This document shows, piece by piece, positions 2,962 to 21,617 of a stretch of 24,397 bases of DNA. The position numbers and the translations under genes were made by a program. Numbering within the stretch: the first letter of the stretch is position 1; each line of letters starts with the position of its first letter. Under the pieces are notes generated by a model. That model worked only from the letters and a program-made list of their open reading frames with translations. It did not search any database and was not told the origin of the DNA. The stretch is taken from NCBI GenBank assembly GCA_017522515.1, contig JAFWZH010000003.1, positions 1 to 24,397 of the forward strand. The letters are read 5' to 3'. This DNA comes from Clostridia bacterium (GTDB lineage Bacteria > Bacillota_A > Clostridia > UBA1212 > UBA1255).

Positions 2962-3789
2962 ATGTTAATCGGTGATAAAATCCGTTCTTTGCGAAAGAAC
3001 AAGAATATTACACAGTCACAGTTGGCTGATGCGTTGTCTGTTTCTTCTCAATCAGTTAGTAAATGGGAAAATCATTTATCTGCGCCGGATATTTCAGTAT
3101 TACCAGTGATAGCAAGATATTTCGGTATCACAATGGATGAACTGTTCAATTACCGCCTTGATGCGTTAAATTACAAGGAAAGATTTATACGCTTTATGGT
3201 GAATAACGGAATGTTGAGGTTCGGTGAATTCACATTGAAAAGCGGTAGAAAATCACCTTATTTAATTCATAGCGGATATAATCTTACGGGTAGTGAGATA
3301 TCAAAGCTTGGAGAATTTTATGCTGAGTGTATCCGAGAACATAACATAGACAGCAATTGCCTTGTGGGTATTAATAATCGTGAAATACCTCTTGTAATTG
3401 CAACAAGTATGATTCTGTTTAACAAATATGGAGTGGATACTGCTCATTGTGTAGATTTTAATATTGAAAATGAGGCCTTTGAATCCAAAAATATAACGCT
3501 CATTACAGATGCATTCACATCAGGTAAAACTTTGCGTTCAGCTCTTGATAATATAAAATCACAGATAGGTAAATATCCGTCTGACATTGTTGTTTGTGTT
3601 GACAGAATGGAGCAAGATGAAAGCTCATCATTCTCTGCTAAACACGAGATTGAGAAGCAGTATGGTGTGAAAATTCATCCTATTGTTAATCTTGATGATA
3701 TAATCAAGGCAGTTGATAATTGTGTTATTTCTGCAGGTGATTACACCGAAAAGCTCAAAGAGTATAGAGCTTGTTACAAGGGGTTATAA
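2962..3789 (+). CDS. XRE-type HTH fused to an orotate phosphoribosyltransferase-like domain
   Basis: A 275-aa fusion. Residues 1-62 form an XRE helix-turn-helix (ITQSQLADALSVSSQSVSKWEN). Residues about 70-260 resemble PyrE, with the FTLKSGRKSPYLI signature at about 90-102. PyrE makes orotidine monophosphate from orotate and PRPP, but the catalytic features here look eroded. The usual lysine-rich flexible loop (RKxKxHG) is absent between about 161 and 178, and the PRPP motif reads ITLITDAFTSGKT (about 178-190) with one acidic residue instead of two. I infer a ligand-sensing regulator built like Bacillus PurR, which joins a DNA-binding domain to an inactive PRTase fold. The start has a perfect AAAGGAGG site. 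Its stop lies 3 nt before pyrF, so the two are coupled. An active enzyme with a divergent loop cannot be excluded. Confidence 0.85.
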   Translation: MLIGDKIRSLRKNKNITQSQLADALSVSSQSVSKWENHLSAPDISVLPVIARYFGITMDELFNYRLDALNYKERFIRFMVNNGMLRFGEFTLKSGRKSPYLIHSGYNLTGSEISKLGEFYAECIREHNIDSNCLVGINNREIPLVIATSMILFNKYGVDTAHCVDFNIENEAFESKNITLITDAFTSGKTLRSALDNIKSQIGKYPSDIVVCVDRMEQDESSSFSAKHEIEKQYGVKIHPIVNLDDIIKAVDNCVISAGDYTEKLKEYRACYKGL

Positions 3790-3792
3790 TTT

Positions 3793-4749
3793 ATGAATAT
3801 TGTTGATAAACTGATTGGAAAAACTATAGCAACAAAAAATCCAACAGTAGTTGGTCTTGACCCTGACATCAGTAAAATTCCTGCTTGTTATAAAATAAAT
3901 AACGACAATTCAAATCCTTTGTCTGCTGTTGCAGAAGTAATATATAAGTTTAACTGTGACATAATTGATACAGTTACAGAACTTGTCCCTGCGGTAAAAC
4001 CTCAGATGGCTTTTTATGAAAAATTCGGGGCTTATGGTGTTACTGCATTTGAAAAAACCGTTGCTTATGCAAAATCAAAAGGGCTTGTTGTAATCGAAGA
4101 CGCAAAGCGGAATGATATAGGTAATACTGCAAAAGCTTATGCAGACGGACATCTTGGAATTGTTGAAACTCTTGATGGTTCATATACATCTGTGTTTGAT
4201 GTTGATTTTTTAACTGTAACACCGTTTTTAGGAAGTGAGAGTCTTAATCCGTTTGTTGATATCTGCAAGAAAACCAATAAAGGTATTTTTGTATTAGTCA
4301 AAACATCAAATACAAGTTCAGGCGAAATACAGGATGTTATCACAAAAGATGGTATAAGCATTAGTCAAAGCATAGCAAAATATGTTGCAGAACAATCCGA
4401 ATCTTTTGTCGGCAAATACGGTTATTCATCAATCGGTGCAGTTGTAGGTGCTACTTATCCCGAAGAAGCAGTTACGCTCAGAAAAATAATGTCTAAGAGT
4501 TATTTGCTAGTTCCTGGCTATGGTGTACAAGGTGGCGGTGCAAAAGATATATTACCTTGCTTTAACTATGATGGTCTTGGTGCAATTATTAATTCATCAA
4601 GAGGCATTTTATATACACATATGAGCGATGAAGAAAGGAACAACTGCAAGAAAGAAGAATACCTGAACAGTGTAAGAAATGCAGTTGTTAAAATGCAGAA
4701 GGATATATACAGTACACTTAAAAAGGATTTTCCTAAAATGTGTTATTGA
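3793..4749 (+). CDS. pyrF: Orotidine 5'-phosphate decarboxylase (type 2)
   Basis: Decarboxylates OMP to UMP, the last step of de novo pyrimidine synthesis, in the cytosol. The 318-aa protein has the expected TIM-barrel markers of the longer type-2 PyrF group: GLDPD (21-25), AVKPQ with Lys69, and the catalytic IEDAKRNDIGNTAKAY stretch with Asp103, Lys105 and Asp108. The phosphate-binding segments VPGYGVQGG and INSSRGI lie near the end. All key residues are present, so it should be active. It starts 3 nt after the HTH-OPRT gene, with AAGGGG overlapping that gene's end. Finding pyrF alone with a PyrE-like regulator, and without other pyr genes, inside a mobile region is unusual. It may supply UMP or act with its partner as a pyrimidine-responsive unit. 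Confidence 0.95.
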   Translation: MNIVDKLIGKTIATKNPTVVGLDPDISKIPACYKINNDNSNPLSAVAEVIYKFNCDIIDTVTELVPAVKPQMAFYEKFGAYGVTAFEKTVAYAKSKGLVVIEDAKRNDIGNTAKAYADGHLGIVETLDGSYTSVFDVDFLTVTPFLGSESLNPFVDICKKTNKGIFVLVKTSNTSSGEIQDVITKDGISISQSIAKYVAEQSESFVGKYGYSSIGAVVGATYPEEAVTLRKIMSKSYLLVPGYGVQGGGAKDILPCFNYDGLGAIINSSRGILYTHMSDEERNNCKKEEYLNSVRNAVVKMQKDIYSTLKKDFPKMCY

Positions 4750-7677: not shown

Positions 7678-7827
7678 GACTTTGCTTCGACAAGTACTTT
7701 GTAGGTAGAAAAAATTTGCTTTCTATTATAATAGAATTTAAAGTACATATGATTTTTTGCTACAATATCAGGAAACGGATATATCCTTATTAAAAAAACT
7801 ATTTGTATGTCAATTTGTTTTTATTAA

Positions 7828-7861
7828 AAAAGCATAGGATCGCATTGAATCCTATGCTTTT
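7828..7861 (-). terminator. Intrinsic terminator of the restriction/HD operon
   Basis: A perfect 13-bp stem, AAAAGCATAGGAT (7828-7840) with ATCCTATGCTTTT (7849-7861), has an 8-nt loop and is followed on the minus strand by a T-rich tract (TTTTTTAATAAAA). It starts 3 nt after the HD gene stop and closes the five-gene operon. The 150 bases between here and the tetR promoter show nothing else. Confidence 0.85.
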
Positions 7862-7864
7862 ATA

Positions 7865-9385
7865 TCATACAGGAGGCATCATTCTAAATTTAGGATAATC
7901 TTTTATATATTTCACAAAATCTTCATTATCTAGTACAGATTTAATAGTTTTGTCAACATATATATACAAAAAACTATTAATCGTCAGATTGGGATTAAGC
8001 TCTTCCAACAATGTATTGTAACTATATATATGACCATTTAGCAAGATTAATATGGCGCTCCTATCAATTGAAGAAAGCTTAATTGAGGTTTTAATTATTT
8101 GTGCTTCAATATTCAAGTCTTTATATTTATACAGATATTTTTTGAATTCCTCTGCTTCTAATGCGTTGCTTCCAGCTATTAGTTTAAAGTTCTCAACAGA
8201 AAAGTCGCCAAGCTTTAAATCGCACTCTCTTTCAGGAAAGATTTCTTTAAATTCAACGAAACTTTTCCATACAGCTTTCTTTTGGTTTCCACGATCTAAA
8301 ATTTCTTTTATACAAGGAATATCTTTATGCTTTTTAAATAAGCACCATATGTCATCGTCACAAAGACAATTGTTAACAATATTTTCCAAACAAAACATTT
8401 GCGTTATAAACAAATTAGGATTACCTGGATTTTCTTGCTTTGCAATTTCTTTGATTGCATTGGAAATTAAAAATGTTTCATATTGTACTTTGTGATGCGA
8501 ATATATCCATGTATATAAGGCATTTCGACATGTTACTACATTTTGTATAACACTTAATGCAGTTTTATCGTATACAAGGACCAATTGTTCGTTTCCTTTA
8601 TCATTTGTAAAATACCAAGGTGTAATTGACGTTATCAAGCGTTCAGTATCTACTTTAACATTATCATAGCCCGAAATTTCAGAATCTCTAGTTATGTAAT
8701 CCAACTTATCAACATCAATAGCTGAAGAATTCAACAAACGAATAAAACAATTATCCAAAGCTTTGTCTATATCGTCGTGCATCGTTCCTGTAATAGCTCT
8801 GATTATAAAATCATAATCTGCATCAATGGAACGAGCTTCACACAATTTTTGTATTGCATCTTTAAACTCCGTTATTGATATAATAGCACTTATTATTTCA
8901 TGAGGCGAAGGATGGGCATTAGCAAAATTTTCACAAAATTTTACATAAACATCATTATCTACGCATTTTGACAAGGCTTCTTTTAATTGTTTATTGATTT
9001 TTACTTCTCCATCTCTTTTTTCTAGTTTGAAATAATCTTCTAGTGTGTGAGAAAAAGGTGAATGTCCAACATCGTGCAATAAAGCTGCTAGTTCAAGATT
9101 AAACTGTAATTTTGAAAAATATTCTTTGTCAAAAATAAATTTTCCGGAAGTCAATTCTTTAAACTTCTGAGATAGATTAGTAGAAATTTTTTTAGCCAAG
9201 TGAAAGGTGCCTATTGAATGAATAAATCTATCGTGTCTTGCCGCTGGATAAAGACATCTCATGCTTGTTTGCTCTATTCGTCTTAATCTTTGGAACAAAG
9301 CGGTATCTATAATACTATTAACGATATCTTTTTCTATTTCAATATAGCCATGTATGGTGTCTCTGAAAATTTTAACATTACTCAT
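7865..9385 (-). CDS. SAMHD1/dGTPase-like HD-domain phosphohydrolase
   Basis: A 506-aa metal-dependent HD enzyme of the SAMHD1-like group, which typically removes triphosphate from dNTPs. The metal-binding layout is complete by eye: RFIHSIG with His56, ALLHDVGHSPFSH with His104/Asp105, and SAIDVDKLDYITRD with Asp224. The same motifs bracket the SAMHD1 active site. Arg53 before the first histidine is also kept. Past about 240 the sequence is unfamiliar and rich in Lys/Ile. I chose the ATG at 9385, with GGGTGAT upstream, over a TTG at 9400. It overlaps the 108-aa gene by 8 nt and is the last gene of the methylase/nuclease operon. dNTP-depleting HD enzymes are known anti-phage effectors, so a defence role is a reasonable inference. 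Another nucleotide or signal could be the true substrate. Confidence 0.88.
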   Translation of the reverse strand: MSNVKIFRDTIHGYIEIEKDIVNSIIDTALFQRLRRIEQTSMRCLYPAARHDRFIHSIGTFHLAKKISTNLSQKFKELTSGKFIFDKEYFSKLQFNLELAALLHDVGHSPFSHTLEDYFKLEKRDGEVKINKQLKEALSKCVDNDVYVKFCENFANAHPSPHEIISAIISITEFKDAIQKLCEARSIDADYDFIIRAITGTMHDDIDKALDNCFIRLLNSSAIDVDKLDYITRDSEISGYDNVKVDTERLITSITPWYFTNDKGNEQLVLVYDKTALSVIQNVVTCRNALYTWIYSHHKVQYETFLISNAIKEIAKQENPGNPNLFITQMFCLENIVNNCLCDDDIWCLFKKHKDIPCIKEILDRGNQKKAVWKSFVEFKEIFPERECDLKLGDFSVENFKLIAGSNALEAEEFKKYLYKYKDLNIEAQIIKTSIKLSSIDRSAILILLNGHIYSYNTLLEELNPNLTINSFLYIYVDKTIKSVLDNEDFVKYIKDYPKFRMMPPV

Positions 9386-9704
9386 TAATATCACCCGCAA
9401 AAAGAGCTTTTTTCATAGCGGTTTTAAAACTATCATCAAGAACATCAACAAATCTATTTCTTATTCTTATCATATTACATAAATAAAAATCTTTCAGAAA
9501 TAGTGAGTCATTTTCTAGCTTGAAATATTCTTCACATGATTCCATAACGGAAATTATAGCATTTTTTGATACATCAATAATTAAATCCTCGTTATGATTA
9601 TATACATTCCTTTCGAAAATGTTTAATTCGGAAAGAGAAATGCCGTCAGGACGATAATATAAAACGCTCCCTAAAACATATTCGGTTGAAATTTGCTTAC
9701 ACAT
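9378..9704 (-). CDS. Unrecognised 108-aa protein of the restriction/HD operon
   Basis: A small, apparently soluble and mostly helical protein that I do not recognise. It has no membrane segment, no cysteine cluster and no obvious catalytic motif. The C-terminal part (MIRIRNRFVDVLDDSFKTAM) looks like an amphipathic helical bundle. A TAGGAG site precedes the ATG. The gene lies 28 nt after the nuclease gene and overlaps the HD gene by 8 nt, so its product is made together with the HD enzyme. That coupling suggests a subunit, inhibitor or sensor partner of the HD protein, which is inference only. Confidence 0.8.
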   Translation of the reverse strand: MCKQISTEYVLGSVLYYRPDGISLSELNIFERNVYNHNEDLIIDVSKNAIISVMESCEEYFKLENDSLFLKDFYLCNMIRIRNRFVDVLDDSFKTAMKKALFAGDINE

Positions 9705-9732
9705 ATAAAACTCCTATAAATATAAAATATTT

Positions 9733-10398
9733 TTACGCAACTATACTTGAAAAATCATAAAAAACGTGAGCTAATAGTAACCCACTTACGTATTCACTTT
9801 CACATAAATAATACGGAGGAAAGGTTTCCTTAATAGAGATATCGCATTTAACATCACTTCCTAATTCATACATGTGAACTGTTGAAATATCTGTTATAAG
9901 TTTAATAAAATCAATATCTCTAACTATAAATCCAACCATAAAATTCTTTTTGTGGTAGGACGAATATTTTGGTGCAGGACCGATAAATCTTGATACACCA
10001 TCTGTAACATATTTTTTGTTTAGTATTGTTGTTCCATCAAGCCTTTTGCACTCAATGATAAAATAATCGTTTCTGTTATTAAACCAGTTTTTAGAAGCTA
10101 CTTTAATATCTGTTCGTCCTATATAAGAGTTTGATGACGGATCATAGTTTTCGGGTGATTCCGCCCAAAATCTCAAATGACAATCTGACAAACCAATATC
10201 CGCACGCAACTCATCTCTATCTAAATAATTCTCTAGAAGATGGGTTCTAATTTTTTCTTCATGGTTTTCAATGGTATTGCTATTGTTTATATTGTTTTTT
10301 AACATGAGTTCACAACTCTTTTTTATAGCCATTACAATAGTGGTAAATAACCCATTTGTAAAATCCACATTAAGAGACTGATTTTTAAAACCTCCCAT
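9733..10398 (-). CDS. PD-(D/E)XK nuclease, probable restriction endonuclease
   Basis: A 221-aa protein with a PD-(D/E)XK-type active site: Asp97 in GRTDIKV, then Glu116 and Lys118 in the hydrophobic strand FIIECKRLDG, with a candidate preceding Glu47/Glu48. This D-X18-ExK layout is typical of restriction endonucleases. The ATG overlaps the methylase stop as TAATG and has a strong AGGAGGTG site upstream, giving tight co-translation. Placed between the methyltransferase and the HD gene, it is most simply the cleavage subunit that relies on the large protein for sequence recognition, or a free type II endonuclease. The N-terminal 45 residues and the tail after 150 are not diagnostic. The motif is read by eye, without an alignment. 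Confidence 0.75.
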   Translation of the reverse strand: MGGFKNQSLNVDFTNGLFTTIVMAIKKSCELMLKNNINNSNTIENHEEKIRTHLLENYLDRDELRADIGLSDCHLRFWAESPENYDPSSNSYIGRTDIKVASKNWFNNRNDYFIIECKRLDGTTILNKKYVTDGVSRFIGPAPKYSSYHKKNFMVGFIVRDIDFIKLITDISTVHMYELGSDVKCDISIKETFPPYYLCESEYVSGLLLAHVFYDFSSIVA

Positions 10399-13337
10399 TA
10401 TTGGTCACCTCCTGAAGCCGATATAATTTGATCCATTACATCAGCCAGATCAAGTTCCGCAATAGCAGGATGCCAATATTTATAGTAATGAGGTTTAATG
10501 ATATAGAACGAATTTTCTTCAAAGTAAACAACATCTCTAATTTGATAAAAGTTATCATTATACGTGTGTACAGCCATTTTAGACAATAGTTCTAAATCTG
10601 GAGTTGTTTCACACACCTGTATTACCTCTTTATTCCAGTTGTTTACAATTTTTAGCTCAAAAGCAGAGTAAAAATTAGCCACATTAGGGTACAAAATAAT
10701 AGAAACATATTTATTTAGTTTATTATAAATGGCAGAAAACTGTTTTTCGAAGATTTCAACAAAAAGTTTGAGATCATCAATAGTAACTTTTTTATATGCA
10801 TAGTTTTCATCAACATTGGTTAATTCCGGTATTTGAATATTAATTGCATAATCAACAAATTTATTGTTTTCGAGCCCAAATGTTTTCAATATCAACTGAT
10901 CCAATTCAACAATTTTCAATTCGCTATCATATGAGTCTAAAAGAGGTTGATTTGTATTAGAACTTTGAATGTTTTGAACATAATTAACTATCTGTGATGA
11001 AAACACATATGGGAAGTCGAGAACTTCACTCATAAATCGTTGTTCACGCTCAATACCAACAGATGAGCCTAACATTAAATTTAAATACGCATATAAAGAT
11101 GAATTGAGTAAACCAACAATATTGTAAAGAGTATTATGTTGTTTCTCGTTACCTTTAATTATATACATAGTTTCTTTACAAACTAGTTCACTATTTGAGA
11201 ATGCTGATCTCATTTTAAAATTAGAACAGTTAAGTCCTTTCGCTGTGAAACAGTGCGGTGGGTTAAACAACGCTCTGTTTCTTACACGGTGTATCCTTTT
11301 TGATTCAAATATTGCTTCCTCATCAATGTTTATAGAAAAATGATCAACTCCATTATCTGAATTTAATAAAGGCAAGCCTATTAATTCTGAGGCATCTTGC
11401 GCATCACCAAGATGATCCTGAATACCTGAGCCAAATATTAGCGATGGTTTCTCAGATTTTATTGAGTCTTTCATTGTCTTAAATTTTTCTTTTAATTTTC
11501 CAATATTCTCGATATCACCGCTATATCCATAAACTATAGTTTTCCATGCCCAATCTGAATCATAAAGTACTTTTTGTTTAATGCGTTTTATATCGTGTTT
11601 CTCAATAACCAACACATTAAACAATTTAAAAAATATACTAGGTTTCAAAGAAATGTAGGAAAAGGTATTGTTTAAATTATCATCTTGATTGTATTTGAAT
11701 GAGAGTATTACTGCGGGAGCATTTGCTTTTTCAAATACAAGTTTTCTTACAGAAGACATTTCAATAACATTACATATTTGTGTTTCTTCTAATAAAAATT
11801 TGCGAAAATTAACGGCTTGAGATTTTTTGTTATAAAGTAATTTGGAATGCAAAATAAAACAGCAAGTAGTATTGGATGAACTAAAGTCTTTAGCTCTAAA
11901 AACAAAACTTCTGCTTATTTCGTTGTTTTGTTGCTTGTTTCTATGTCCATGATTTGCACAATAATTCAAATGTAAACCAGTTTTAACATTCCCCCATGGA
12001 GGATTTCCCAAAATATAATCGAATTTAATGTTTTTATTTTGCAAATCTTTTAGTTTTTCATCATCAAAAAAATCTGCTACAAATAAATTCGAGTTCTTTA
12101 AATTTGGAAGTTTAAAGTCGCATAGATTTTTAGGATCTTTATAATCCAACATTGTTAAGTACAGAGAAAATATCGTAACATCAATAGCCTCGTCATTGAT
12201 GTCAATACCAAATATATTGTCAACTAGAAGTTTTTTTAGCAAATCATTATTGTCACAATATAAGCTGTTTGATAAATTTTCTTCAACCATTCTACGATAA
12301 CTATCGACTAGAAAAACACCTGAGCCACATGCTGGATCTAGTACGGAAAACTGTTTTTTCTTAACCAATTGTTGCATAACTGTCTTATCGAGAATGAACT
12401 CTACCAAATAATTAGGTGTATAGAAAGCGTTATCTTTTTCTTGAACTTCTTTACCCAGAAGTATCTCATATATGTTGCTAATAAGTTCTACAGGTATAAT
12501 ATTAAAATCATATAGAGAAAACAAAGAGTATTGCCCACTTTTGAGTTCAATATTATCAGAAAAGAATTCTTCTAATAAAGCAAATACTTCGTCTGTCAAA
12601 GAATCACAATTAATCTCGTTTGTCAAATCGAAGAGGTTGCCATTGAATTTTGATTTTAGGTAAGCAAATAATTCATACAACTTTTCCTTTTTACTTACGA
12701 ACTTAAGAAATTCTATTCTTGATTCTTTTTTGTCTGCTGTAAAATTTTTGTAACCTAAATCAACGCCTCTGTCAATTAAATAACGGATAAAAATTAAACG
12801 CAGGACTAATTTTGTAGCAAAAGAAATATGAAACTTGTTTTTTAATTCATTAGTTAAATAAGAAATATTATCAAGAAGTTTTTTATGTAACTTTTCATTG
12901 GAATAGTCATATGAATATTTAGACCAAAATACAGGGTTAGCAATATTCCAAAACGAAAAGTCAGAATTTTCAGAGCATTCTTCCGCGTTATATTCTTTGA
13001 CTTTCTTTATCAACAAATCCGTTAGATCTAATGAGGTGCCATTGTACACATTTATGCTTTTCTCATTACAAAAAATAGCAACCGGAATTTGTGCGTTCCA
13101 AATGCGATTACTAATTTCCTTAAAATCAATTTTATCTTGAATCGAACTATCGAAAAATAAAACAAAGGGACGGTTATCCACGACATAGATAGCATATGGT
13201 CCAATCTCATTAATAATTTTTTTGGTGTGTGAAGACAGAGAAGAATCTTTTACTGCAGAAAACTTAATAAGATTATTAGAGTTTTCGTAACCTAATCGAG
13301 AAATAATTGAATCAATTGGTAACCTAAATTCGTTCAT
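10398..13337 (-). CDS. Eco57I-like N6-adenine methyltransferase with specificity domain
   Basis: A 979-aa protein with the organisation of type IIG/Eco57I-like enzymes. A helical region at about 140-300 leads into AFYTP (about 304), motif I DPACGSG (334-340), the acidic GIDIN strand (about 377-381) and the catalytic NPPWG (445-449), which mark an N6-adenine methylase. The C-terminal half, with LLNSSLYAYLNLMLG and SEVLDFPY, looks like a TaqI-type target-recognition domain. In full type IIG enzymes the first ~130 residues form a PD-(D/E)XK nuclease. Here the matching segment reads VVDNRPFVLFFDSS and lacks a convincing D...ExK triad, so cleavage may be done by the separate downstream nuclease. 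A strong AAGGAG site precedes the ATG. It overlaps the C-protein gene by 14 nt. Confidence 0.9.
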   Translation of the reverse strand: MNEFRLPIDSIISRLGYENSNNLIKFSAVKDSSLSSHTKKIINEIGPYAIYVVDNRPFVLFFDSSIQDKIDFKEISNRIWNAQIPVAIFCNEKSINVYNGTSLDLTDLLIKKVKEYNAEECSENSDFSFWNIANPVFWSKYSYDYSNEKLHKKLLDNISYLTNELKNKFHISFATKLVLRLIFIRYLIDRGVDLGYKNFTADKKESRIEFLKFVSKKEKLYELFAYLKSKFNGNLFDLTNEINCDSLTDEVFALLEEFFSDNIELKSGQYSLFSLYDFNIIPVELISNIYEILLGKEVQEKDNAFYTPNYLVEFILDKTVMQQLVKKKQFSVLDPACGSGVFLVDSYRRMVEENLSNSLYCDNNDLLKKLLVDNIFGIDINDEAIDVTIFSLYLTMLDYKDPKNLCDFKLPNLKNSNLFVADFFDDEKLKDLQNKNIKFDYILGNPPWGNVKTGLHLNYCANHGHRNKQQNNEISRSFVFRAKDFSSSNTTCCFILHSKLLYNKKSQAVNFRKFLLEETQICNVIEMSSVRKLVFEKANAPAVILSFKYNQDDNLNNTFSYISLKPSIFFKLFNVLVIEKHDIKRIKQKVLYDSDWAWKTIVYGYSGDIENIGKLKEKFKTMKDSIKSEKPSLIFGSGIQDHLGDAQDASELIGLPLLNSDNGVDHFSINIDEEAIFESKRIHRVRNRALFNPPHCFTAKGLNCSNFKMRSAFSNSELVCKETMYIIKGNEKQHNTLYNIVGLLNSSLYAYLNLMLGSSVGIEREQRFMSEVLDFPYVFSSQIVNYVQNIQSSNTNQPLLDSYDSELKIVELDQLILKTFGLENNKFVDYAINIQIPELTNVDENYAYKKVTIDDLKLFVEIFEKQFSAIYNKLNKYVSIILYPNVANFYSAFELKIVNNWNKEVIQVCETTPDLELLSKMAVHTYNDNFYQIRDVVYFEENSFYIIKPHYYKYWHPAIAELDLADVMDQIISASGGDQ

Positions 13338-13569
13338 CTAATCCTTCTCCTTTGCTACAAGAGCAATCAATAAAAAGTAAATATGTCTCAATTTCTAAAG
13401 CATTTGCAATCTTTTGAACATTTTCCAATGCTATACTTCTTTTTCCACATTCAATAGCACTAATATATGTTCTATGTAGCCCAGCTTTTTCTGCAAATGC
13501 CTCTTGAGAAATGCCAAGATTCATCCTATACTTTTTCAAGTTTGAAGAAAACACTTTTAAAATATCCAT
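13324..13569 (-). CDS. C-protein-like XRE regulator of the restriction-modification operon
   Basis: An 81-aa single-domain helix-turn-helix protein. The sequence ISQEAFAEKAGLHRTYISAI followed by ECGKRSIALENVQKIANAL closely matches the controller (C) proteins that time expression of type II restriction-modification genes. It is the first gene of the operon and overlaps the methylase start by 14 nt. A GAGGTG site lies just before the ATG. The Cys-rich tail (DCSCSKGEG) is unusual for the family. A C protein should first activate and later repress its own promoter, delaying the nuclease until host DNA is methylated. Confidence 0.88.
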   Translation of the reverse strand: MDILKVFSSNLKKYRMNLGISQEAFAEKAGLHRTYISAIECGKRSIALENVQKIANALEIETYLLFIDCSCSKGEGLDERI

Positions 13570-13589
13570 AGATACACCTCATTTTTTTA

Positions 13590-13619
13590 ATTATACACCA
13601 TTTGAATACAATTAGCCAA
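13590..13619 (-). promoter_or_regulatory. Promoter/operator of the restriction-modification operon
   Basis: On the minus strand TTGGCT (13614-13619 on the plus strand as AGCCAA), an 18-bp spacer and TATAAT (13590-13595). Two TTGTAT hexamers about 15 bp apart flank the -35 and are candidate C-protein contacts. Confidence 0.5.
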
Positions 13620-13753
13620 CATACAATAAGTAACATTTTAAGAATTTATTTTAAACTTATATGTAGTAAGCGTATATTTTGTTAGCCATTTTTTTAAGCG
13701 AGTTTTCCATACAGAAATTGTATTGATACTCATATATAATTCTTGATAAACTG

Positions 13754-14478: not shown

Positions 14479-14919
14479 TTATGGACTCTCTTTTTTCTTA
14501 CTCTTTTCATAAAGAATTATATTGACTAATGAAATAATAGCATTAACAACTGCTAAGACACAATAAAAAACGTCCAACCAATTTATGGCTTGAATGAGCC
14601 ACACAACAGAACTTAGTAACCATAAAAGCGAAGCAATAAGAAATCGTTTTTTATAAATAAGCTTTTGGTAATCTAATTTATTATGAACTTCTTTTACACA
14701 AGGAATATCGTTATCACTAGAATAGTCCTCATTTAATAAATAATCTGTGGTTACATTAAATAACTTGCTTAATTGAAGAATATTGTTTGCATCCGGAAGC
14801 GCTGTACCATTCTCCCAACGGCTGATTGCTTGTCGGGATACGTTGAGTTTTTCTGCTAAATCTTCCTGTGACCAACCATTAACTTTTCTTAGCTTTGTTA
14901 TTTTATCTGACAATTTCAT
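14479..14919 (-). CDS. Membrane-anchored XRE-family regulator
   Basis: A 146-aa protein. Residues 1-62 are an XRE helix-turn-helix (WSQEDLAEKLNVSRQAISRW). A polar linker follows, then two hydrophobic helices at about 93-112 and 115-136 and a Lys-rich end. The DNA-binding domain would thus be held at the cytoplasmic face of the membrane. GGGAGGC lies about 8 nt before the ATG. It is transcribed away from the mobilisation operon, from a region with two 8-bp repeats spaced by two helical turns. It may regulate the neighbouring transfer/integration genes or itself. Neither target is shown by the sequence. Confidence 0.85.
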   Translation of the reverse strand: MKLSDKITKLRKVNGWSQEDLAEKLNVSRQAISRWENGTALPDANNILQLSKLFNVTTDYLLNEDYSSDNDIPCVKEVHNKLDYQKLIYKKRFLIASLLWLLSSVVWLIQAINWLDVFYCVLAVVNAIISLVNIILYEKSKKKESP

Positions 14920-14987
14920 AATGAAAGCCTCCCTTCATTTTGGCGATTTCATTGTAACAAAACACAACGCAAAGTGCCACCACATTT

Positions 14988-15016
14988 ACTTTACAAATCC
15001 GCAACATAACTTTACA
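14988..15016 (-). promoter_or_regulatory. Paired ACTTTACA repeats upstream of the XRE gene
   Basis: ACTTTACA occurs at 14988-14995 and 15009-15016, exactly 21 bp (two helical turns) apart, about 70-100 bp before the XRE start. A minus-strand TACAAT -10-like hexamer lies closer to the gene. Such phasing suits two dimers of the XRE protein binding one face of the DNA. Confidence 0.4.
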
Positions 15017-15085
15017 TCGTTTTGAAAATCTGATTTTTTCTAATTATACTACAACCTCACCAAACAAATCAACCTGAATACATAT

Positions 15086-15120
15086 CCTTGTACTTTAAGT
15101 TTCAGTACGGGGATTTTTTT
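15086..15120 (+). terminator. Intrinsic terminator before the mobilisation operon
   Basis: CCTTGTACT (15086-15094) pairs with AGTACGGGG (15104-15112), with two GU pairs, around a 9-nt loop. ATTTTTTT follows. It would stop plus-strand transcription entering from the left. Confidence 0.7.
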
Positions 15121-15200
15121 AATGCAAAATTTTCAAATAAAGGAAGTGAAAAAATGCTTTAGAAAACCAACCGAAAAAACAGTAAAAAAAGCGTGGCATA

Positions 15201-15260
15201 AGTCTTAGCAAGCACTGGATTTGTGCATACAAATCCCACTTGTTAGGGATTGCTCCCTAA
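15201..15260 (+). other. Putative origin of transfer (oriT)
   Basis: Two hairpins lie side by side 26 nt before the first mob gene. GGATTTGT (15217-15224) pairs with ACAAATCC (15229-15236) around GCAT, with outer CAAG/CTTG arms. TTAGGGA (15243-15249) pairs with TCCCTAA (15254-15260) around TTGC. Short inverted repeats just upstream of mobC-type genes are the usual place and form of an oriT. The nick site cannot be named, because no relaxase is encoded here to define the family. Confidence 0.5.
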
Positions 15261-15286
15261 AACCCGAAAGACAGGAGGTGAAAAAA

Positions 15287-15637
15287 TTGAAGCTGACAAA
15301 AACCATATTTTTGTATCTGAATGAGAAAGAATTTTCAATGCTTACAAAGGATGCCCAAAGAGCAAATATGAGCAGGTCACGGTATATCAGGCATCAGATT
15401 GATAATGCAAAAATGAAGCCCACATTGGGTATGGACTATGAGAAATATATCAATCTGCTTGAGCCCATATGTGACAAGCTGAGTATTGTATCAAAAAGAG
15501 TGTGGCAAACAAAAATGCTTGATACAGTAATGCTTCGTGAGGTTCTTAAAAGCACAAATGAAATTATGCCCGAAATCATAAAAGCAAAGGAGGTGGCACA
15601 GTGCGTACAAGAGCGAGAAGAATCGCAGTTAGAGTAA
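15287..15637 (+). CDS. MobC-like relaxosome accessory protein 1
   Basis: A 116-aa protein whose N-terminal half (FLYLNEKEFSMLTKDAQRAN followed by MSRSRYIRHQI) has the ribbon-helix-helix look of MobC-family mobilisation proteins, which bind oriT and help the relaxase. The C-terminal half is helical. The chosen start is a TTG at 15287 because a perfect AGGAGGTG lies 6 nt upstream. A farther upstream in-frame start would run through the oriT-like hairpins. It overlaps the second mobC-like gene by 37 nt. The family assignment is from sequence feel rather than an alignment. Confidence 0.7.
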   Translation: MKLTKTIFLYLNEKEFSMLTKDAQRANMSRSRYIRHQIDNAKMKPTLGMDYEKYINLLEPICDKLSIVSKRVWQTKMLDTVMLREVLKSTNEIMPEIIKAKEVAQCVQEREESQLE

Positions 15638-15939
15638 GTGATGAGCAGTATGACAAAATATGCCGTTTGACAGACAGAAGTTTCTTTACAAAGGAGCAGG
15701 TGCTAAGGGATATTATTCTCGGCTATCCGATTCAGGAAGACAGAAAACCTGAATGTATGGAGTTTATTTTAAAGCTCCGTGGAATTGCAAGCACCTTAAA
15801 CAATCTTTTCAGAAATTACGGCTTATCAGATTTACCAATCGGCAAGGAGATTAAGCAGACAGCTGATGCGGTTGAGTGTACAGAGAATCTAATTGAAGAT
15901 TGTATTTTTATCACAAGAATGAAAAGGAGAATTAAATGA
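15601..15939 (+). CDS. MobC-like relaxosome accessory protein 2
   Basis: A 112-aa basic protein starting at a GTG preceded by AAAGGAGGTG. The N-terminus (RRIAVRVSDEQYDKI) is a ribbon-helix-helix-like DNA-binding segment, and the middle (FILKLRGIASTLNNLFRNYG) matches the conserved helix of the bacterial MobC family, where an N-x-N-Q/L pattern is common. It starts inside the first mobC-like gene and ends with an ATGA overlap into the ParB-like gene. In related mobilizable elements a relaxase gene usually follows at this point. Here none does. Confidence 0.75.
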   Translation: MRTRARRIAVRVSDEQYDKICRLTDRSFFTKEQVLRDIILGYPIQEDRKPECMEFILKLRGIASTLNNLFRNYGLSDLPIGKEIKQTADAVECTENLIEDCIFITRMKRRIK

Positions 15940-16853
15940 ATAAAGAAGATAATTTTATTAACACCCTGTTTGGAAAAACAGAAGAAGCAGAGGCGGTAAA
16001 GCCTCAGACTACAGAAATCATAAAGATGCCTATGAGCAGTATTGTTCCTAATTTTAAAAATCCGTATAAATGCCGTGAGGAAGATATGAAGCCGTTGGAG
16101 GACAGTATCCGTGAAAACGGTATTATTCAACCCCTTATGGTACGAAAGGACGATAAGGCTGATGTGTATGAAATCATATCAGGACACAGACGTTTCCTTG
16201 CAGCAACAAGGCTTAAACTGACAGAGGTGACGGTGGTAGTTTTAGATATCACAAAGGAAGAAGCAGATATTATTCTTGTTGACAGTAATCTGCACCGAGA
16301 GCATATTCTACACTCGGAGAAAGCCTTTGCTTACAAGATGAAAATGGATGCTCTTAAAAAGCAGGGCAAACGAACGGATTTAACTTCGGACCAAGTCGGA
16401 CCGAGGTTATCTGCAAACGAAATCTCCGATACCGACAGTGTTTCTCAGGTGAAAAGATATATCCGTCTTACTAACCTGATTCCAAGACTTCTTGCTTTGG
16501 TAGATAGTGGTAAAATCGCACTTGGTACTGCTGTTGAGCTTTCATATCTCAGCCAAGGTCATCAGAACTTTTTATCTGAGGCTATTGAAAAAGAGCTTTC
16601 TACGCCATCCCTTGCACAGGCGCAGAAATTGAAGAAATTAGAACAAGAGGGAAAGCTTGATGTCGGTACAATTCTTAGTATGGTTAAACAGCCTAAACCT
16701 AATCAGGTTGTTACAGTTAAAATCCCCGATGATAAAATCAGTAAATATCTCAAGCCAACAGCTACGGTAAAGGAGAAAGAAGATTTCCTTGCGAAGGCTG
16801 TTGATTATTACGGAAAGCATCTTATGAAACAGAAAGACAGAGGTACGAGATAA
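15936..16853 (+). CDS. ParB/Spo0J-like protein
   Basis: A 305-aa DNA-binding protein of the ParB/RepB/Spo0J family. The N-terminal nuclease/CTP-binding fold shows RENGIIQPLMV and the diagnostic SGHRRFLAA (GHRR 83-86). DSNLHRE (about 116-122) stands where chromosomal ParB has ENxQR. A helix-turn-helix region follows (NEISDTDSVSQVKRYIRLT), and the C-terminal part is helical. No ParA partner is present, as is usual for ParB-like proteins of clostridial integrative elements, where partition is less likely than a regulatory or stabilising role. ATGA overlap with the gene before and TAATG overlap with the gene after show a single operon. Confidence 0.9.
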   Translation: MNKEDNFINTLFGKTEEAEAVKPQTTEIIKMPMSSIVPNFKNPYKCREEDMKPLEDSIRENGIIQPLMVRKDDKADVYEIISGHRRFLAATRLKLTEVTVVVLDITKEEADIILVDSNLHREHILHSEKAFAYKMKMDALKKQGKRTDLTSDQVGPRLSANEISDTDSVSQVKRYIRLTNLIPRLLALVDSGKIALGTAVELSYLSQGHQNFLSEAIEKELSTPSLAQAQKLKKLEQEGKLDVGTILSMVKQPKPNQVVTVKIPDDKISKYLKPTATVKEKEDFLAKAVDYYGKHLMKQKDRGTR

Positions 16854-17089
16854 TGAAAAAGCTTAAAGATTTTTACGGTCTCTGTTGTGACAGTGAATAT
16901 TTAATTGATGGTGTCTGTTACAAGGTTTCATCCAAGTTTGCACCTGTGAATATCTGTAAGATTGAAAACACCATAAGCGACAAAGCACAAAAATATGTTG
17001 GCAGTGATTTTGCACATTTGACAAATGCCGATGATAGAAATACAATGAATGCAGAATATGTATGTTTGACTGCCGGGAAGGAGGATTAA
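16853..17089 (+). CDS. Small conserved-looking protein before the recombinase
   Basis: A 78-aa protein that I do not recognise, with four cysteines (C11, C12, C22, C34) near the N-terminus and one near the end. It is translationally coupled on both sides: TAATG overlaps with the ParB-like gene and again with the recombinase gene. It has no membrane segment. Small proteins next to large serine recombinases sometimes act as directionality factors. The position makes that possible, but nothing in the sequence proves it. Confidence 0.75.
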   Translation: MKKLKDFYGLCCDSEYLIDGVCYKVSSKFAPVNICKIENTISDKAQKYVGSDFAHLTNADDRNTMNAEYVCLTAGKED

Positions 17090-18792
17090 TGCAGGCTGAA
17101 GCAAACATCGGAATTACTGCTATCTACTGCCGATTATCAAGAGATGACGGCACGGAAACAGAGAGTAATTCTATCGGCAACCAAAAGAAAATGCTGACAC
17201 AAAAGGCAAAGGAATTAGGTCTAACAAATACCAAGTATTATGTTGATGACGGCTATACGGGTACGAACTTCAACAGACCTGCTTTTCAGGAGCTTCTTGA
17301 TGATATTGAGATGGGATATATCTCAGTCGTTATTGTCAAAGACCTTTCCCGATTAGGAAGAGATTATGTTTCAGTCGGTCATTATACAGACAACTATTTC
17401 CCTGAGCATAATGTAAGATTTATCGCTGTTAATGATATGGTTGACAGTGATGAGGGCGAAAATGAAATCGCACCCTTCAAAAATGTTATGAACGAAATGT
17501 ATGCGAGAGATATCAGCCGTAAAGTCAGGAGTGCTCACCGTATTCGTGGTAATATGGGAGAACCGCTTTCTCAGCCACCATACGGGTATATGAAGAGTCC
17601 TGAAAACAAGAAGAAATGGATAATTGATGCAGAAGCTGCAGAAGTGGTCAGGGATATTTACAGAATGTGTCTTGAGGGTATGGGTAACGAGTCTATTGCA
17701 AGAGAACTACAAAACAGACAAGTGCTTATCCCTATGGCATATTGGCAAAGTAAAGGCTTGAATCGTGGCGGTAAGAAAACACAGCCTAACCCATACAAAT
17801 GGTGCAAGACAACCGTGCAGAAGATATTAGCACAACAGGAATACTGTGGTGATGTTATCAACTTCAAGACCTATTCCAAAAACTTCAAGAACAAAACCCG
17901 TATTGATAACCCTGTAGAGAATTGGAAAATCTTCAGGGATGTTCATGAGCCTATTATTGACCGTGACACTTGGGAAATAGTACAGAAGCACACAGCACAG
18001 ACGAAACGTAGAGCACCTAAGAAAGAGAATGCAAGAAAGCATATCTTTAGTGGTCTCATCCGCTGCGCGGATTGCGGAAGCAATATGAGGTATCACACAA
18101 ATACTGTCAACAAGGATATTCACTATTTCAGTTGCAGCAACTATGTAAAAGATACCCGTGGAACTTGCCCTGAAAGACACTATATCCGTGCAGATGCTCT
18201 TGAACAGATAGTCGTCCTTGAGCTGAAACGCCTTGCAATAATGCTTCAAATGGATGAGCTGTTACTTGTTGAAATCCTCGAAAAGAAAACCCATAAAGAT
18301 TTCTATGATGAAAAGAAATTCCTTGAGGGTGAACTGCAGAAAGCAATAGTTCGTCAACAGACAGTCGCTTCTCTTTATGAGAAACTGTATGAGGACAATG
18401 CAACGGGCAAGGTTACGGATGAATGGTTTACTCATATGTCCCACAAATACGAGGTTGAACGAGCAGAGTTGAAGGTCAAGATATTTAACCTGAGAGAACA
18501 GGTTGCAAATATGCAGACAGTTCAGCACAGCAAGGATATGTTTATCGGTGCAGTAAGAAAGTTCCTGGATATGGAAACAATTACAGCACCACTCATTCAT
18601 GAGCTTATCGACCACATTGATGTTTATGAGGCAGAGGGTAAGGGTAAAAACAAGACACAGAGAGTTGTGATTCACTACAACTTTGTAGGTTATCTAGAAA
18701 TACCTGAATCAGACACACCTTGCTTCACAGCGGATACCCGTCAGGGAGTAGCAATAGGCTATATTGCGAAACCTACAGAAAAGTCAGCATAA
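17089..18792 (+). CDS. Large serine recombinase (TnpX/TndX type)
   Basis: A 567-aa site-specific recombinase that would integrate and excise the element through a phosphoserine intermediate. The N-terminal resolvase domain has the nucleophile Ser17 (YCRLSRDD), NSIGNQ, DDGYTGTNFNRPAF and the VKDLSRLGRD segment. A recombinase domain follows (IRGNMGEPLSQPPYGY). Next come a zinc ribbon (LIRCADCGSNM with a second Cys pair around FSCSNY...TCPERH), a coiled-coil stretch and a DUF4368-like end (IHELIDHIDVYE). The start used is the ATG at 17089 with AAGGAGGAT upstream and TAATG overlap, not the in-frame ATG at 17062. It is the last gene of the mob/parB operon and lies 120 bp from the tRNA-Pro gene. 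Confidence 0.95.
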   Translation: MQAEANIGITAIYCRLSRDDGTETESNSIGNQKKMLTQKAKELGLTNTKYYVDDGYTGTNFNRPAFQELLDDIEMGYISVVIVKDLSRLGRDYVSVGHYTDNYFPEHNVRFIAVNDMVDSDEGENEIAPFKNVMNEMYARDISRKVRSAHRIRGNMGEPLSQPPYGYMKSPENKKKWIIDAEAAEVVRDIYRMCLEGMGNESIARELQNRQVLIPMAYWQSKGLNRGGKKTQPNPYKWCKTTVQKILAQQEYCGDVINFKTYSKNFKNKTRIDNPVENWKIFRDVHEPIIDRDTWEIVQKHTAQTKRRAPKKENARKHIFSGLIRCADCGSNMRYHTNTVNKDIHYFSCSNYVKDTRGTCPERHYIRADALEQIVVLELKRLAIMLQMDELLLVEILEKKTHKDFYDEKKFLEGELQKAIVRQQTVASLYEKLYEDNATGKVTDEWFTHMSHKYEVERAELKVKIFNLREQVANMQTVQHSKDMFIGAVRKFLDMETITAPLIHELIDHIDVYEAEGKGKNKTQRVVIHYNFVGYLEIPESDTPCFTADTRQGVAIGYIAKPTEKSA

Positions 18793-18798
18793 CAAAAA

Positions 18799-18822
18799 GT
18801 CGCACTCCGAAAGGAATGCGAC
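18799..18822 (-). terminator. Hairpin after the recombinase gene
   Basis: GTCGCACTCC and GGAATGCGAC pair over 10 positions with one mismatch around GAAA. The T run (TTTTTG) lies on the minus strand, so it best stops transcripts coming leftwards from the tRNA side before they run into the recombinase gene. Confidence 0.6.
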
Positions 18823-18867
18823 GATACATAAAAACTAATAAATCAAATACAAAACTCTATTTTAAGC

Positions 18868-18912
18868 AAAAAAATTGAGTATTCACAGGTCAAATCCCTT
18901 ATGAATACTCAA
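18868..18912 (-). terminator. Intrinsic terminator of tRNA-Pro
   Basis: On the minus strand TTGAGTATTCA and TGAATACTCAA (18902-18912 and 18875-18885) form a perfect 11-bp stem around a 16-nt loop. Seven T residues follow (18868-18874 on the plus strand as A). It begins 2 nt after the tRNA CCA end. The stem and loop contain the 19-bp sequence that recurs at 2356-2374. Confidence 0.85.
18892..18910 (-). repeat. Right copy of the 19-bp sequence
   Basis: Read on the minus strand, GAGTATTCATAAGGGATTT differs from the copy at 2356-2374 by one base. It lies within the tRNA-Pro terminator, in the opposite orientation to the left copy. Confidence 0.6.
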
Positions 18913-18914
18913 TA

Positions 18915-18991
18915 TGGTCGGAGTGACGGGACTTGAACCCATGGCCTCTTGGTCCCGAACCAAGCGCGATACCAAACTTCGCCACACCCCG
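18915..18991 (-). tRNA. tRNA-Pro (anticodon CGG)
   Basis: A 77-nt tRNA with encoded CCA. The acceptor stem CGGGGTG pairs with CACTCCG (one GU). The anticodon arm is CTTGG-TTCGGGA-CCAAG, giving anticodon CGG for proline. The T arm contains GGGTTCAAGTCCC. It has its own promoter about 30 bp upstream and a terminator immediately downstream, and it looks fully functional. The serine-recombinase operon ends about 120 bp beyond its 3' side. Confidence 0.97.
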
Positions 18992-19021
18992 AAATATTCA
19001 ACTGTTTTGAACAGCTTGCTA

Positions 19022-19050
19022 ATTATAAATGATATGTTAGAAAAAATCAA
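19022..19050 (-). promoter_or_regulatory. Promoter of tRNA-Pro
   Basis: On the minus strand TTGATT (19045-19050 on the plus strand as AATCAA), a 17-bp spacer and a perfect TATAAT (19022-19027). The leader before the tRNA would be about 25 nt. Confidence 0.75.
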
Positions 19051-19130
19051 GTCATTTTCTTAAAAAAGTTGTTTTTTTCGGTATATAAAAATTTATGTGC
19101 GAAAAGTGGGTCGGATAACTGTGGTTTCCA

Positions 19131-19160
19131 TTGACAAAGACTTCTGTTCGGTGATATACT
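19131..19160 (+). promoter_or_regulatory. Promoter of the GH38-like gene
   Basis: A perfect TTGACA (19131-19136), an 18-bp spacer and TATACT (19155-19160). A GCTTTA/TAAAGC hairpin lies in the short leader before the GAGGGA ribosome binding site. Confidence 0.75.
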
Positions 19161-19190
19161 TGCTTTAGCCTAATAAAGCGAGGGACAGCT

Positions 19191-21617
19191 ATGAAAAACG
19201 AACCTTTATATATTCTTACATATGAACACGGCGGTTATGTTCTCTGGAAGGACAGAGTAAAGCCGAGAATTAAGAATCTTTTTGAATGGATGGAAAAGTA
19301 TCCGAGACTGCGAATCGGTCTTGATTACGAATCGTTCACCTTTGATGAGTTTTCACGAGAAGACCCGGAGGCGGTTGAGCTCATTCTCGAGCTTTTGCGT
19401 AAATATCCTGACAGGGTTGGCCTTGGTGCTACTACATACGGTCAGCCGTTGTCGTTAACGATTTCCGAAGAATCCAACGCACGCCAGCTTCTTTATGCCG
19501 TGCGTACAAATATGGCTTATTGCGGCAAGACACCGAGTGTTTATGCAATTTCCGAATTTGCTCTTAATAATCAGACACCTCAGCTTGCAAAACTCTGCGG
19601 CTATGAGGCGGCTATTCTGCGTTCTCATGTTATGGGTTACGGTTACCCGAAAACCTTTGACAGTGCTTGGGGCAAATGGATAGGCAAGGATAAAACGGAA
19701 ATTCCTGCCGTGCCGACTTACGACGGGCAGGGCAGAGGCTACAACTGCACAACGGTTGATAACTGGATTCTTTCACGTTGGCCTGTTGATTCCGTGCTGT
19801 ATTCGCTTGACGATTTCAAGGAGATGTTTTCCAAATATTCTCCGCTTCTTGCGACAAGGTACGATGACCTCACCCAACCTATTGAAACGCTTCATGCTGA
19901 AATCGAAGATAGGGAAGATTTCGAGTACATTCTTCTTGAGGATATTCCTAAAATTTTCGGTGAGCCTGTTGATGAGCTTGCAACAACCGATAATGATTTT
20001 CACGTGCAGATGCCGTGGGGTTATTGCGGCAACGAGATTTTCAACGGATGCCGTGAAGGTGAGGTTGCTGCTGTTCAGGGTGAAAAGCTCAACGCTTTAT
20101 CTGTATTTCTTGGCGGAAAATCCGAGCAGGAAAAGAGTGAGGAAGCGTGGAAATATACGCTTGCCGCTCAGCATCACGATGTCACTATCTGCGGCTTGCT
20201 TGATTTGTCACGCCGTTTCATTCCTTCGTCACTTGCAGCTTCAGATTATGTAAAATCTCAGTCGCTTTCTGAACTTTCAGCACGATTTGCAAATAAGGAT
20301 AACGACAGCCTCTTTGTCTTTAACGGTCATTCCTTTGCGATTGATGAGTGGGTGGAGGTTGAAAGTGATAAAGCACTTTCTGCTTTTGACGGCGAAACAC
20401 AGCTTGAAAGCGAGTATTCCGACGGTAAACTTCGTGTGCACATCTGTCTGCCTGCACTTACCGCAAAGAGCTTAAGACTTGTCAAAGCTGAAAATACGGC
20501 AAAATCCGAATATAATTGGAAGGCCGAAATCGGCGAACTTGTTACACCTGTATATACTCTCAAGGTAAATGACAGGGGAATTGTGTGGCTTAAGAAAAAC
20601 TCCGACAACAGCCTTGTTTTTGATAACGGTGAGGGTGAACTGTTCACAGCTTGGGTTGAAAATGAGCCCTGTGCTTCAATTGGAAAATGGAGTGTTGAAG
20701 TTACTGCACATGGCGCAAAGGCTGTTTATAACGGAGTTATAGGTACGGTTCCGTTTAATTTTGAAATGTGCTTTTCGGGTAAGAGTGAGAGAATTGACTG
20801 TAAAGCCCGTTTTGAAATGCACGGGGAGCATATCGGCAGAACTGATATCACTCAGGGCAGACCTGTTCCGCTTACACGTAACGGACATCACCACGAGGAT
20901 AAACTCTGCTTTGTTATGAACGCCTGCCTTGATAATGACAGGCGTATGATGCGTGACCTGCCGTATTCAATTTCCGATTGGAACGGTGCTGTGCTCAAAA
21001 CAGAGGAATACTGGTACCCCAACGACAAAATTCTTGTTGATACTGAGGTTTCGGCAGAGGAATCCTTCAACTCCATAACATATATGCAGGGCATTTACTG
21101 GCTTGCATTAAGAGATAATAAGCAGGGTATTGCTGTTGCAAACCGTGGCTGTACGGGCTCTGCTGTTGAAGGTAACAGGCTGTATATTCCATTGCTTTAC
21201 TCAAACGAATATATGTGCGGCACACGTATTCTTGACGGCGTTTTTGAGGATGAATTTTCGCTGATTCCGTTCGGTGCTGAAAAGACCGATGCCGAGCTTC
21301 ACCGTGATGCTGTTTCCTATGTTTATCCGCCCGTAAGTGCGGTTATTGCTAAAGGTGACGGCGACCTCAACACATTTACCGTTGCAGATTTCAAGGGTGA
21401 CAGCGAGGTTATTCTCACCGCACTTTATCCTGAGGAAAACCATATTCTTGCACGCTTCTGTAATTATTCTGATTCACCGTCGAGTGCTGTTCTTGCACCC
21501 AATGTCGGTAGCGTAAAATGTGAAACCGATTTGCTCGGCAATGAGCTTGGCAAAATAGAAAACGGCGAGTTGAGCTTCAGACCGTGGGAAATCAAAACTG
21601 TAAAAATTACGCTGTAA
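19191..21617 (+). CDS. Divergent GH38 (alpha-mannosidase)-like protein
   Basis: An 808-aa cytoplasmic protein without a signal peptide, with the overall layout of GH38 alpha-mannosidases. It has an N-terminal barrel (about 1-270), a helical middle containing LAAQHHDVTICG with His328/His329/Asp330 (like the family's H-H-D zinc-site segment), and a long C-terminal beta-sandwich (about 370-808). The usual N-terminal HxHxD zinc motif is replaced by TYEHGGYVLW. Where GH38 has the nucleophile Asp in a D-P-F-G segment, this protein reads YAISEFALNN (Ser121-Glu122). By eye, then, key catalytic residues are altered. It may be an atypical mannosidase, act on another glycan, or be a non-catalytic relative. 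GAGGGA precedes the ATG, and it has its own promoter. Base composition is more GC-rich than the island to the left, consistent with native chromosome. Confidence 0.6.
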   Translation: MKNEPLYILTYEHGGYVLWKDRVKPRIKNLFEWMEKYPRLRIGLDYESFTFDEFSREDPEAVELILELLRKYPDRVGLGATTYGQPLSLTISEESNARQLLYAVRTNMAYCGKTPSVYAISEFALNNQTPQLAKLCGYEAAILRSHVMGYGYPKTFDSAWGKWIGKDKTEIPAVPTYDGQGRGYNCTTVDNWILSRWPVDSVLYSLDDFKEMFSKYSPLLATRYDDLTQPIETLHAEIEDREDFEYILLEDIPKIFGEPVDELATTDNDFHVQMPWGYCGNEIFNGCREGEVAAVQGEKLNALSVFLGGKSEQEKSEEAWKYTLAAQHHDVTICGLLDLSRRFIPSSLAASDYVKSQSLSELSARFANKDNDSLFVFNGHSFAIDEWVEVESDKALSAFDGETQLESEYSDGKLRVHICLPALTAKSLRLVKAENTAKSEYNWKAEIGELVTPVYTLKVNDRGIVWLKKNSDNSLVFDNGEGELFTAWVENEPCASIGKWSVEVTAHGAKAVYNGVIGTVPFNFEMCFSGKSERIDCKARFEMHGEHIGRTDITQGRPVPLTRNGHHHEDKLCFVMNACLDNDRRMMRDLPYSISDWNGAVLKTEEYWYPNDKILVDTEVSAEESFNSITYMQGIYWLALRDNKQGIAVANRGCTGSAVEGNRLYIPLLYSNEYMCGTRILDGVFEDEFSLIPFGAEKTDAELHRDAVSYVYPPVSAVIAKGDGDLNTFTVADFKGDSEVILTALYPEENHILARFCNYSDSPSSAVLAPNVGSVKCETDLLGNELGKIENGELSFRPWEIKTVKITL

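Follow-up and report, generated by a model that had tools for sequence, protein, structure and literature searches.

Comparative context divides a five-gene Clostridia island into an apparent C-controlled restriction-modification system and a putative S108-HD phosphohydrolase unit

Gene layout and flanking sequence

The window, the whole stretch of 24,397 nucleotides analysed here from contig JAFWZH010000003.1 of a Clostridia bacterium, holds a compact block of five minus-strand genes, called C, MT, NUC, S108 and HD (Table 1). All five open reading frames were confirmed, as was the spacing given in an earlier note on this DNA: C overlaps MT by 14 nt and MT overlaps NUC by 1 nt (TAATG), NUC and S108 lie 28 nt apart, and S108 and HD overlap by 8 nt. 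The G+C content of the block is about 30%, compared with 36% in the left flank and 39-43% in the right flank. To the right are genes for an HTH protein, two NikA-like mobilization proteins, ParB and a large serine recombinase, which makes it probable that the block is part of a mobilizable element or lies next to one; for the element ends, no exact repeats of at least 12 nt were found around 18701-19200. Elsewhere in the window (2962-4749), one ORF joins an HTH domain to a part that by eye is orotate phosphoribosyltransferase-like, with Pfam recognizing the HTH only, and is followed by an orotidine decarboxylase gene.

Table 1. Genes and sequence features of the five-gene block and its surroundings
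Feature	Position	Strand	Description
C	13324..13569	-	81-aa controller protein, HTH_3
MT	10398..13337	-	979-aa N6-adenine methylase, Eco57I/type IIG family
NUC	9733..10398	-	221-aa PD-(D/E)XK nuclease, probable cognate restriction enzyme
S108	9378..9704	-	108-aa small partner, winged-helix-like by prediction
HD	7865..9385	-	506-aa SAMHD1/EF1143-type phosphohydrolase, by homology
Hairpin then T run, probable terminator	7825..7864	-	downstream of HD
Promoter-like TTGGCT-18-TATAAT upstream of C	13590..13619	-	site scan
Tandem repeat, ~15-nt period, over putative C promoter; probable C operator	13602..13632	-	
Mobile-element genes: HTH, two NikA-like, ParB, serine recombinase	14479..18792	.	context, in neither module

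The earlier note had given the island one promoter and one terminator. Promoter-like sites number 40 in the window, against a shuffle mean of 38.3 (sd 5.4), and so are not in excess; the putative promoter of C is better supported because the tandem repeat upstream of C can be aligned between the window and five related loci. The exact 26-nt operator pattern occurs in 3 of 165 loci, while isolated half-sites, with one mismatch allowed, are not rare (seven in the window, a number reached in 5 of 100 shuffles), and the tandem repeat is a probable operator for the C protein. Downstream of HD, an inverted repeat of 16 nt, 94% complementary, leads into a run of six T on the minus strand, but this hairpin was absent from the output of the terminator scan, which gave one site, inside NUC (shuffle mean 2.1). 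Co-transcription of all five genes in the window organism is possible.

The restriction-modification genes

C matches the PADLOC Control_protein profile (E 2.7e-19), and its close relatives, at 69-84% identity, precede MT in 5 of the 79 genome loci in which the NUC family was found. MT matches Pfam Eco57I/N6_Mtase, is covered from residue 8 to 973 by the PADLOC type IIG profile PDLC03603, and carries the DPACGSG and NPPW motifs of adenine methylases; among 17 aligned members its N-terminus has no conserved nuclease signature. NUC has no match in Pfam, PADLOC or NCBIfam, the last of which gave nothing above a cut-off for the window genes. In an alignment of 49 rows (the window protein and 48 of its 113 relatives), G94, D97, I98, E116, K118, R119 and D121 do not vary, and conservation reaches at least 90% at R95 and C117, in the pattern G-R-x-D-I ... 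E-C-K-R-x-D. Assignment to the PD-(D/E)XK enzymes is also backed by the predicted fold of NUC; Foldseek searches with the S108 and NUC models gave nothing at E<=0.001, and the structural support comes from a later VIA-align comparison.

The methylase accompanies the NUC family in 78 of the 79 loci, and in the one locus without it the contig begins just before the match. Genes downstream of NUC vary between loci, and the NUC family was not found in viral contigs. The PADLOC matches, the NUC motif and this linkage agree with the restriction-modification assignment of the first three genes in the earlier note, and C-MT-NUC is by its sequence a complete-looking C-controlled type II restriction-modification system.

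The HD phosphohydrolase

The HD protein contains an HD domain recognized by Pfam, and 12 residues are invariant in 33 aligned rows: H51, R53, H56, H104, D105, H108, H113, E116, H162, E163, D224 and D226, which we take to map onto SAMHD1 numbering. The catalytic-type residues and the downstream D residues are thus preserved, and the view that methylase, nuclease and HD motifs are all intact is upheld by the Pfam and PADLOC matches and the invariant residues of NUC and HD. EF1143 has dNTPase activity, and in the PDB the HD profile comes closest to EF1143-type (2o6i, E 2.9e-39) and SAMHD1 (4bzc, E 1.8e-27) entries, in keeping with the earlier description of a SAMHD1-like enzyme. Dgt is reached weakly (4x9e, 2.5e-5), the PADLOC dGTPase score is also weak (24.6 bits), and there is no match at E<=0.001 to 9p8s-9p8v, which we infer from the accession list of PMC12265719 to be the CloA dGTPase of the Clover system. 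By homology over the HD core the protein is a SAMHD1/EF1143-type phosphohydrolase and most likely degrades dNTPs.

A protein search returned 4401 relatives, of which the best 120 were considered; the closest of these 120, P0124-P0130, are 59-84% identical to the window protein. Matches at E<=0.001 occur in 17 of 391 genomes of the class.

S108 and its linkage to HD

Nine relatives of S108 were found by protein search. S108 has no nucleotidyltransferase match in Pfam, PADLOC, NCBIfam or PDB sequences, and PADLOC, scanned over the window and the relatives, names neither S108 nor HD beyond the weak dGTPase score. Its predicted model resembles winged-helix regulators, and S108 is probably a winged-helix partner protein.

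Genome searches for HD covered 391, 9, 58, 67 and 392 genomes, in overlapping sets, and viral contigs. A tree of 50 HD proteins, made by a quick method with SH-aLRT support only, places the window HD in a clade of 23 (SH-aLRT 99), and a small gene lies directly upstream of HD in all 13 clade members with known context, the window included. These 13 of the 23 are the window, nine loci and three members for which S108 and HD clusters share longest contigs sized 14727, 2139 and 7678, and which are therefore taken to have both genes on the same contigs. At the nine loci, whose HD proteins are near that of the window, the upstream gene encodes 120-130 aa and is at most 45 nt away. Seven of the nine upstream genes still match the S108 profile, at E 1.3e-11 or better, if they are omitted from it; those of L153 and L154, with left-out E values of 47 and 37, are placed by position only, and the extended profile brings that of L154 to E 0.03.

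A further 398 genomes, sampled later, yielded six HD loci at E<=1e-60, two of them (L175 and L177) near copies, and all six have a gene of 119-155 aa upstream, with a gap to HD of 198 nt in L173 and 137 nt in L174. The S108 profile built earlier finds three of these six genes (E 4.3e-26, 2.2e-11 and 2.9e-6) and nothing further among 585 ORFs. The linkage of small gene to effector gene is conserved for S108-HD in the 13 clade members and in these three later cases. Three S108-HD pairs sit on IMG/VR predicted viral contigs; the first queries with S108 and HD had found nothing in viral contigs, and no S108 was found in plasmids.

The profile of the window-type S108 proteins reaches only 2 of 10 locus-type proteins at E 2.4e-4 or better. 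The locus-type profile matches window S108 at E 9.1e-5, and hhalign of six window-type against ten locus-type proteins gives a probability of 95.6% (E 1.2e-8). Because this profile match is joined by shared position, size and a Met-Cys start (present in 8 of the 10 aligned locus-type proteins), the simplest reading is that both types belong to one fast-diverging family.

Other HD clades have different small partners (group B, and group C, which forms one clade with support of 99) or none that was recognized. Partner groups B and C are related by profile (94%), but S108 and group C give a probability of 0.8%, and common descent of these two is therefore not claimed. One group B HD protein (L157:3492-5927) ends in a PRTase-CE domain (Pfam 3.8e-20) and is preceded by a 147-aa partner. 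Within the clade of the window HD, at L154:5534-10624, a 1566-aa protein with an N-terminal HD domain follows a 124-aa gene. At L164:8281-11341, the HD gene and an unclassified 171-aa upstream partner lie behind a phage-type amidase gene, with genes that look phage-like by eye earlier on the contig; the label DUF4065/Panacea, considered for this partner in L146 and L164, was dropped for want of Pfam backing.

Restriction operons with other HD genes

HD-type genes were found by profile in three of the 79 restriction-modification loci. Two of these (L031:4656-10609 and L026:4769-10672) have the same restriction-modification family as an operon of a CloA-like dGTPase, an extended methylase and NUC, with dGTPase and methylase ORFs overlapping by 20 nt. 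The dGTPases score 226 bits (L026) and 219 bits (L031) with the PADLOC dGTPase profile, and that of L031 matches 9p8t at E 2.8e-54. The methylases have a 244-residue N-terminal extension; a nucleotidyltransferase domain suggested for it by a motif seen by eye was not supported by Pfam or PDB sequences. The third locus, L024, has a different HD gene downstream of NUC. Outside this family, a type I hsdM-hsdS-hsdR operon ends with a SAMHD1-like HD gene, 2 nt past hsdR (L113:8140-16095, hsdS by eye).

Other neighbours were seen beside methylases. At L037:5164-9860 and L042:5284-9986, a gene matching the PADLOC PDC-M70A nucleotidyltransferase is just upstream of the same methylase family, in these cases with an N-terminal extension of 190-199 residues, and L037 also has a weak 2'-5' RNA ligase match. 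On a Labrenzia plasmid (L081:2123-9413), genes for a radical SAM protein, a 3'-5' exonuclease, an AAA ATPase and an HD protein follow one another, and a divergent N-6 DNA methylase lies about 3 kb away.

One unit or two

The earlier note had proposed that all five genes form one defence unit, and the reading can be put as co-expression under the control of C, with restriction cutting phage DNA and the dNTPase starving phage replication. The compact layout, with its overlaps and 28-nt gap, speaks for such a unit, as do the overlap of dGTPase and methylase genes in L026 and L031, the other HD gene after NUC in L024 and the HD gene behind hsdR in L113. The neighbourhoods of the two gene sets argue against it. 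The S108 family occurs in none of the 79 restriction-modification loci (extended profile, 5119 ORFs, E<=1), 69 of which extend at least 1 kb past NUC and 10 less than 1 kb; an 80-aa ORF in L053 that the first S108 profile had found at E 1.7e-4 was not found with the extended profile and was taken as chance. Conversely, neither MT nor NUC of the window type was found by tblastn and the nuclease profile in the stretch read around any of the 12 genome or viral S108-HD pairs outside the window, several of which are on contigs of 4-6 kb (G338 4.4 kb, G1220 5.6 kb). On the viral contig L134, another N6 methylase gene, weakly matched by window MT, is about 4 kb from the pair. An N6_Mtase lies within 10 kb of HD in only 1 of 36 genomes with HD matches, about what chance would give (0.99 cases expected over 42 HD loci), and in that genome (G161) HD follows hsdR by 2 nt in the type I operon and falls outside the S108 clade in the tree (row L089). 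The absence of co-occurrence from both sides leaves the single unit unsupported as a conserved system, and we regard it as unlikely. The comparison that the earlier note had suggested, of S108 and HD neighbourhoods with the methylase and nuclease, thus largely went against its proposal; the part that survives is that HD genes of other types beside or inside three of the 79 loci keep some link of restriction with dNTP removal conceivable, and the operons of L026 and L031 in particular leave it viable that the two are sometimes combined, with parts other than those of the window.

Two further explanations concern S108 and HD themselves. S108 could bind DNA and repress or activate the operon in which it lies, with HD serving in housekeeping or salvage as a phosphohydrolase that keeps the nucleotide pool clean, rather than as a defence effector; the resemblance of the S108 model to winged-helix regulators, the location of several pairs among ordinary genes and the presence of a thymidylate kinase gene some 0.5 kb before one pair (L152:2987-3664) are consistent with this. 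Against it stand the rare and patchy occurrence of HD (17 of the 391 class genomes), the three pairs on predicted viral contigs, and in the window the low G+C and the neighbouring recombinase, with a recombinase gene near L110 and L134 as well; this explanation appears rather unlikely. HD might instead act on another nucleotide or signal, such as ppGpp-like or cyclic compounds, with S108 as the sensor. Substrates of HD-superfamily enzymes are varied, and the dNTP assignment is itself drawn from sequence, but the closest solved relatives are the SAMHD1 and EF1143-type entries, the latter representing a known dNTPase activity, and we consider a different substrate very unlikely.

Proposed organization and its meaning

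The reading that we find reasonably probable is of two back-to-back defence-type modules in one low-G+C block beside mobile-element genes, namely a restriction-modification system and a gated S108-HD unit. In the scheme that we infer, C would bind the tandem operator and time expression of the first module, MT would methylate adenine at its site and, judging from motifs and linkage, NUC rather than the N-terminus of MT would cut unmodified DNA. In the second module, HD would most likely degrade dNTPs and S108 would be its dedicated partner, most likely restraining or gating the enzyme, a role suggested by the clade-wide linkage, the gene overlap and the analogy with Clover. Infection or stress might then disturb an S108-HD complex, with dNTPs depleted only at that point. 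The two modules may share a transcript in the window, which would not imply a conserved unit; S108-HD is, on comparative grounds, a separate two-gene unit found in Bacillota genomes and predicted viral contigs, and can be read as a regulator-effector or toxin-antitoxin-like dNTPase module.

More tentatively, at somewhat below an even chance, S108-HD may be the clearest branch of a broader class of two-gene modules that has no name as yet. In each module a small protein encoded upstream would gate the SAMHD1-like HD enzyme, and the partner family (S108, B, C) would differ by HD clade. Such a class would serve regulated dNTP depletion against phages or be of toxin-antitoxin type, and restriction operons would have acquired its dNTPase genes repeatedly (the window, L026/L031 and L113).

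How bacterial dNTPases avoid starving their own cell is only partly known; in one family, Clover solves the problem through a nucleotide signal. If confirmed, control by a small protein partner of its own would give the SAMHD1-like branch a second solution, based on protein, and gating of HD by S108 would offer a comparison for SAMHD1 itself. The island also illustrates that close packing of genes is not in itself enough for a joint defence system.

Comparison with known systems

The earlier note knew of no named system with this gene order, and a keyword search of open-licence literature likewise showed, among the papers listed, none on the five-gene order or the S108-HD pair; the pair looks new. 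The restriction-modification part is, as far as its sequence can tell, a further member of the C-controlled type II systems, sharing with them an HTH controller, a repeat over its own promoter, an N6-adenine methylase and a PD-(D/E)XK nuclease. It differs in that the nuclease is a separate 221-aa gene with no library family and in that its operator repeats are direct, the usual C-box being described in PMC5282649 as inverted repeats with a GACT/AGTC core; the same paper reports direct repeats for C-proteins of Mollicutes.

SAMHD1/EF1143-type dNTPases and the stand-alone anti-phage dGTPases (PADLOC dGTPase) are likewise HD-superfamily enzymes with the catalytic-type residues kept; the window HD differs in that its clade comes with a small upstream gene. 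Type II toxin-antitoxin pairs resemble S108-HD in that a small gene immediately precedes a larger one for the effector, and in their patchy distribution, although S108 has no family match and a role in toxicity is here putative. Clover, according to PMC12265719, consists of the CloA dGTPase and the CloB nucleotidyltransferase, and CloA is toxic without its partner. The likeness to S108-HD is one of outline, in that both have two genes, an HD dNTPase-type enzyme and a dedicated partner, which in the described Clover system restrains the enzyme. The window HD is of the SAMHD1/EF1143 type rather than the Dgt type, its profile missing the presumed CloA structures at the threshold given above, and S108, at 108 aa and with no nucleotidyltransferase match, is not a CloB-type partner. 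On this reading, S108-HD would add a variant to the regulated dNTPase modules, with a small, probably winged-helix protein in the place of the partner.
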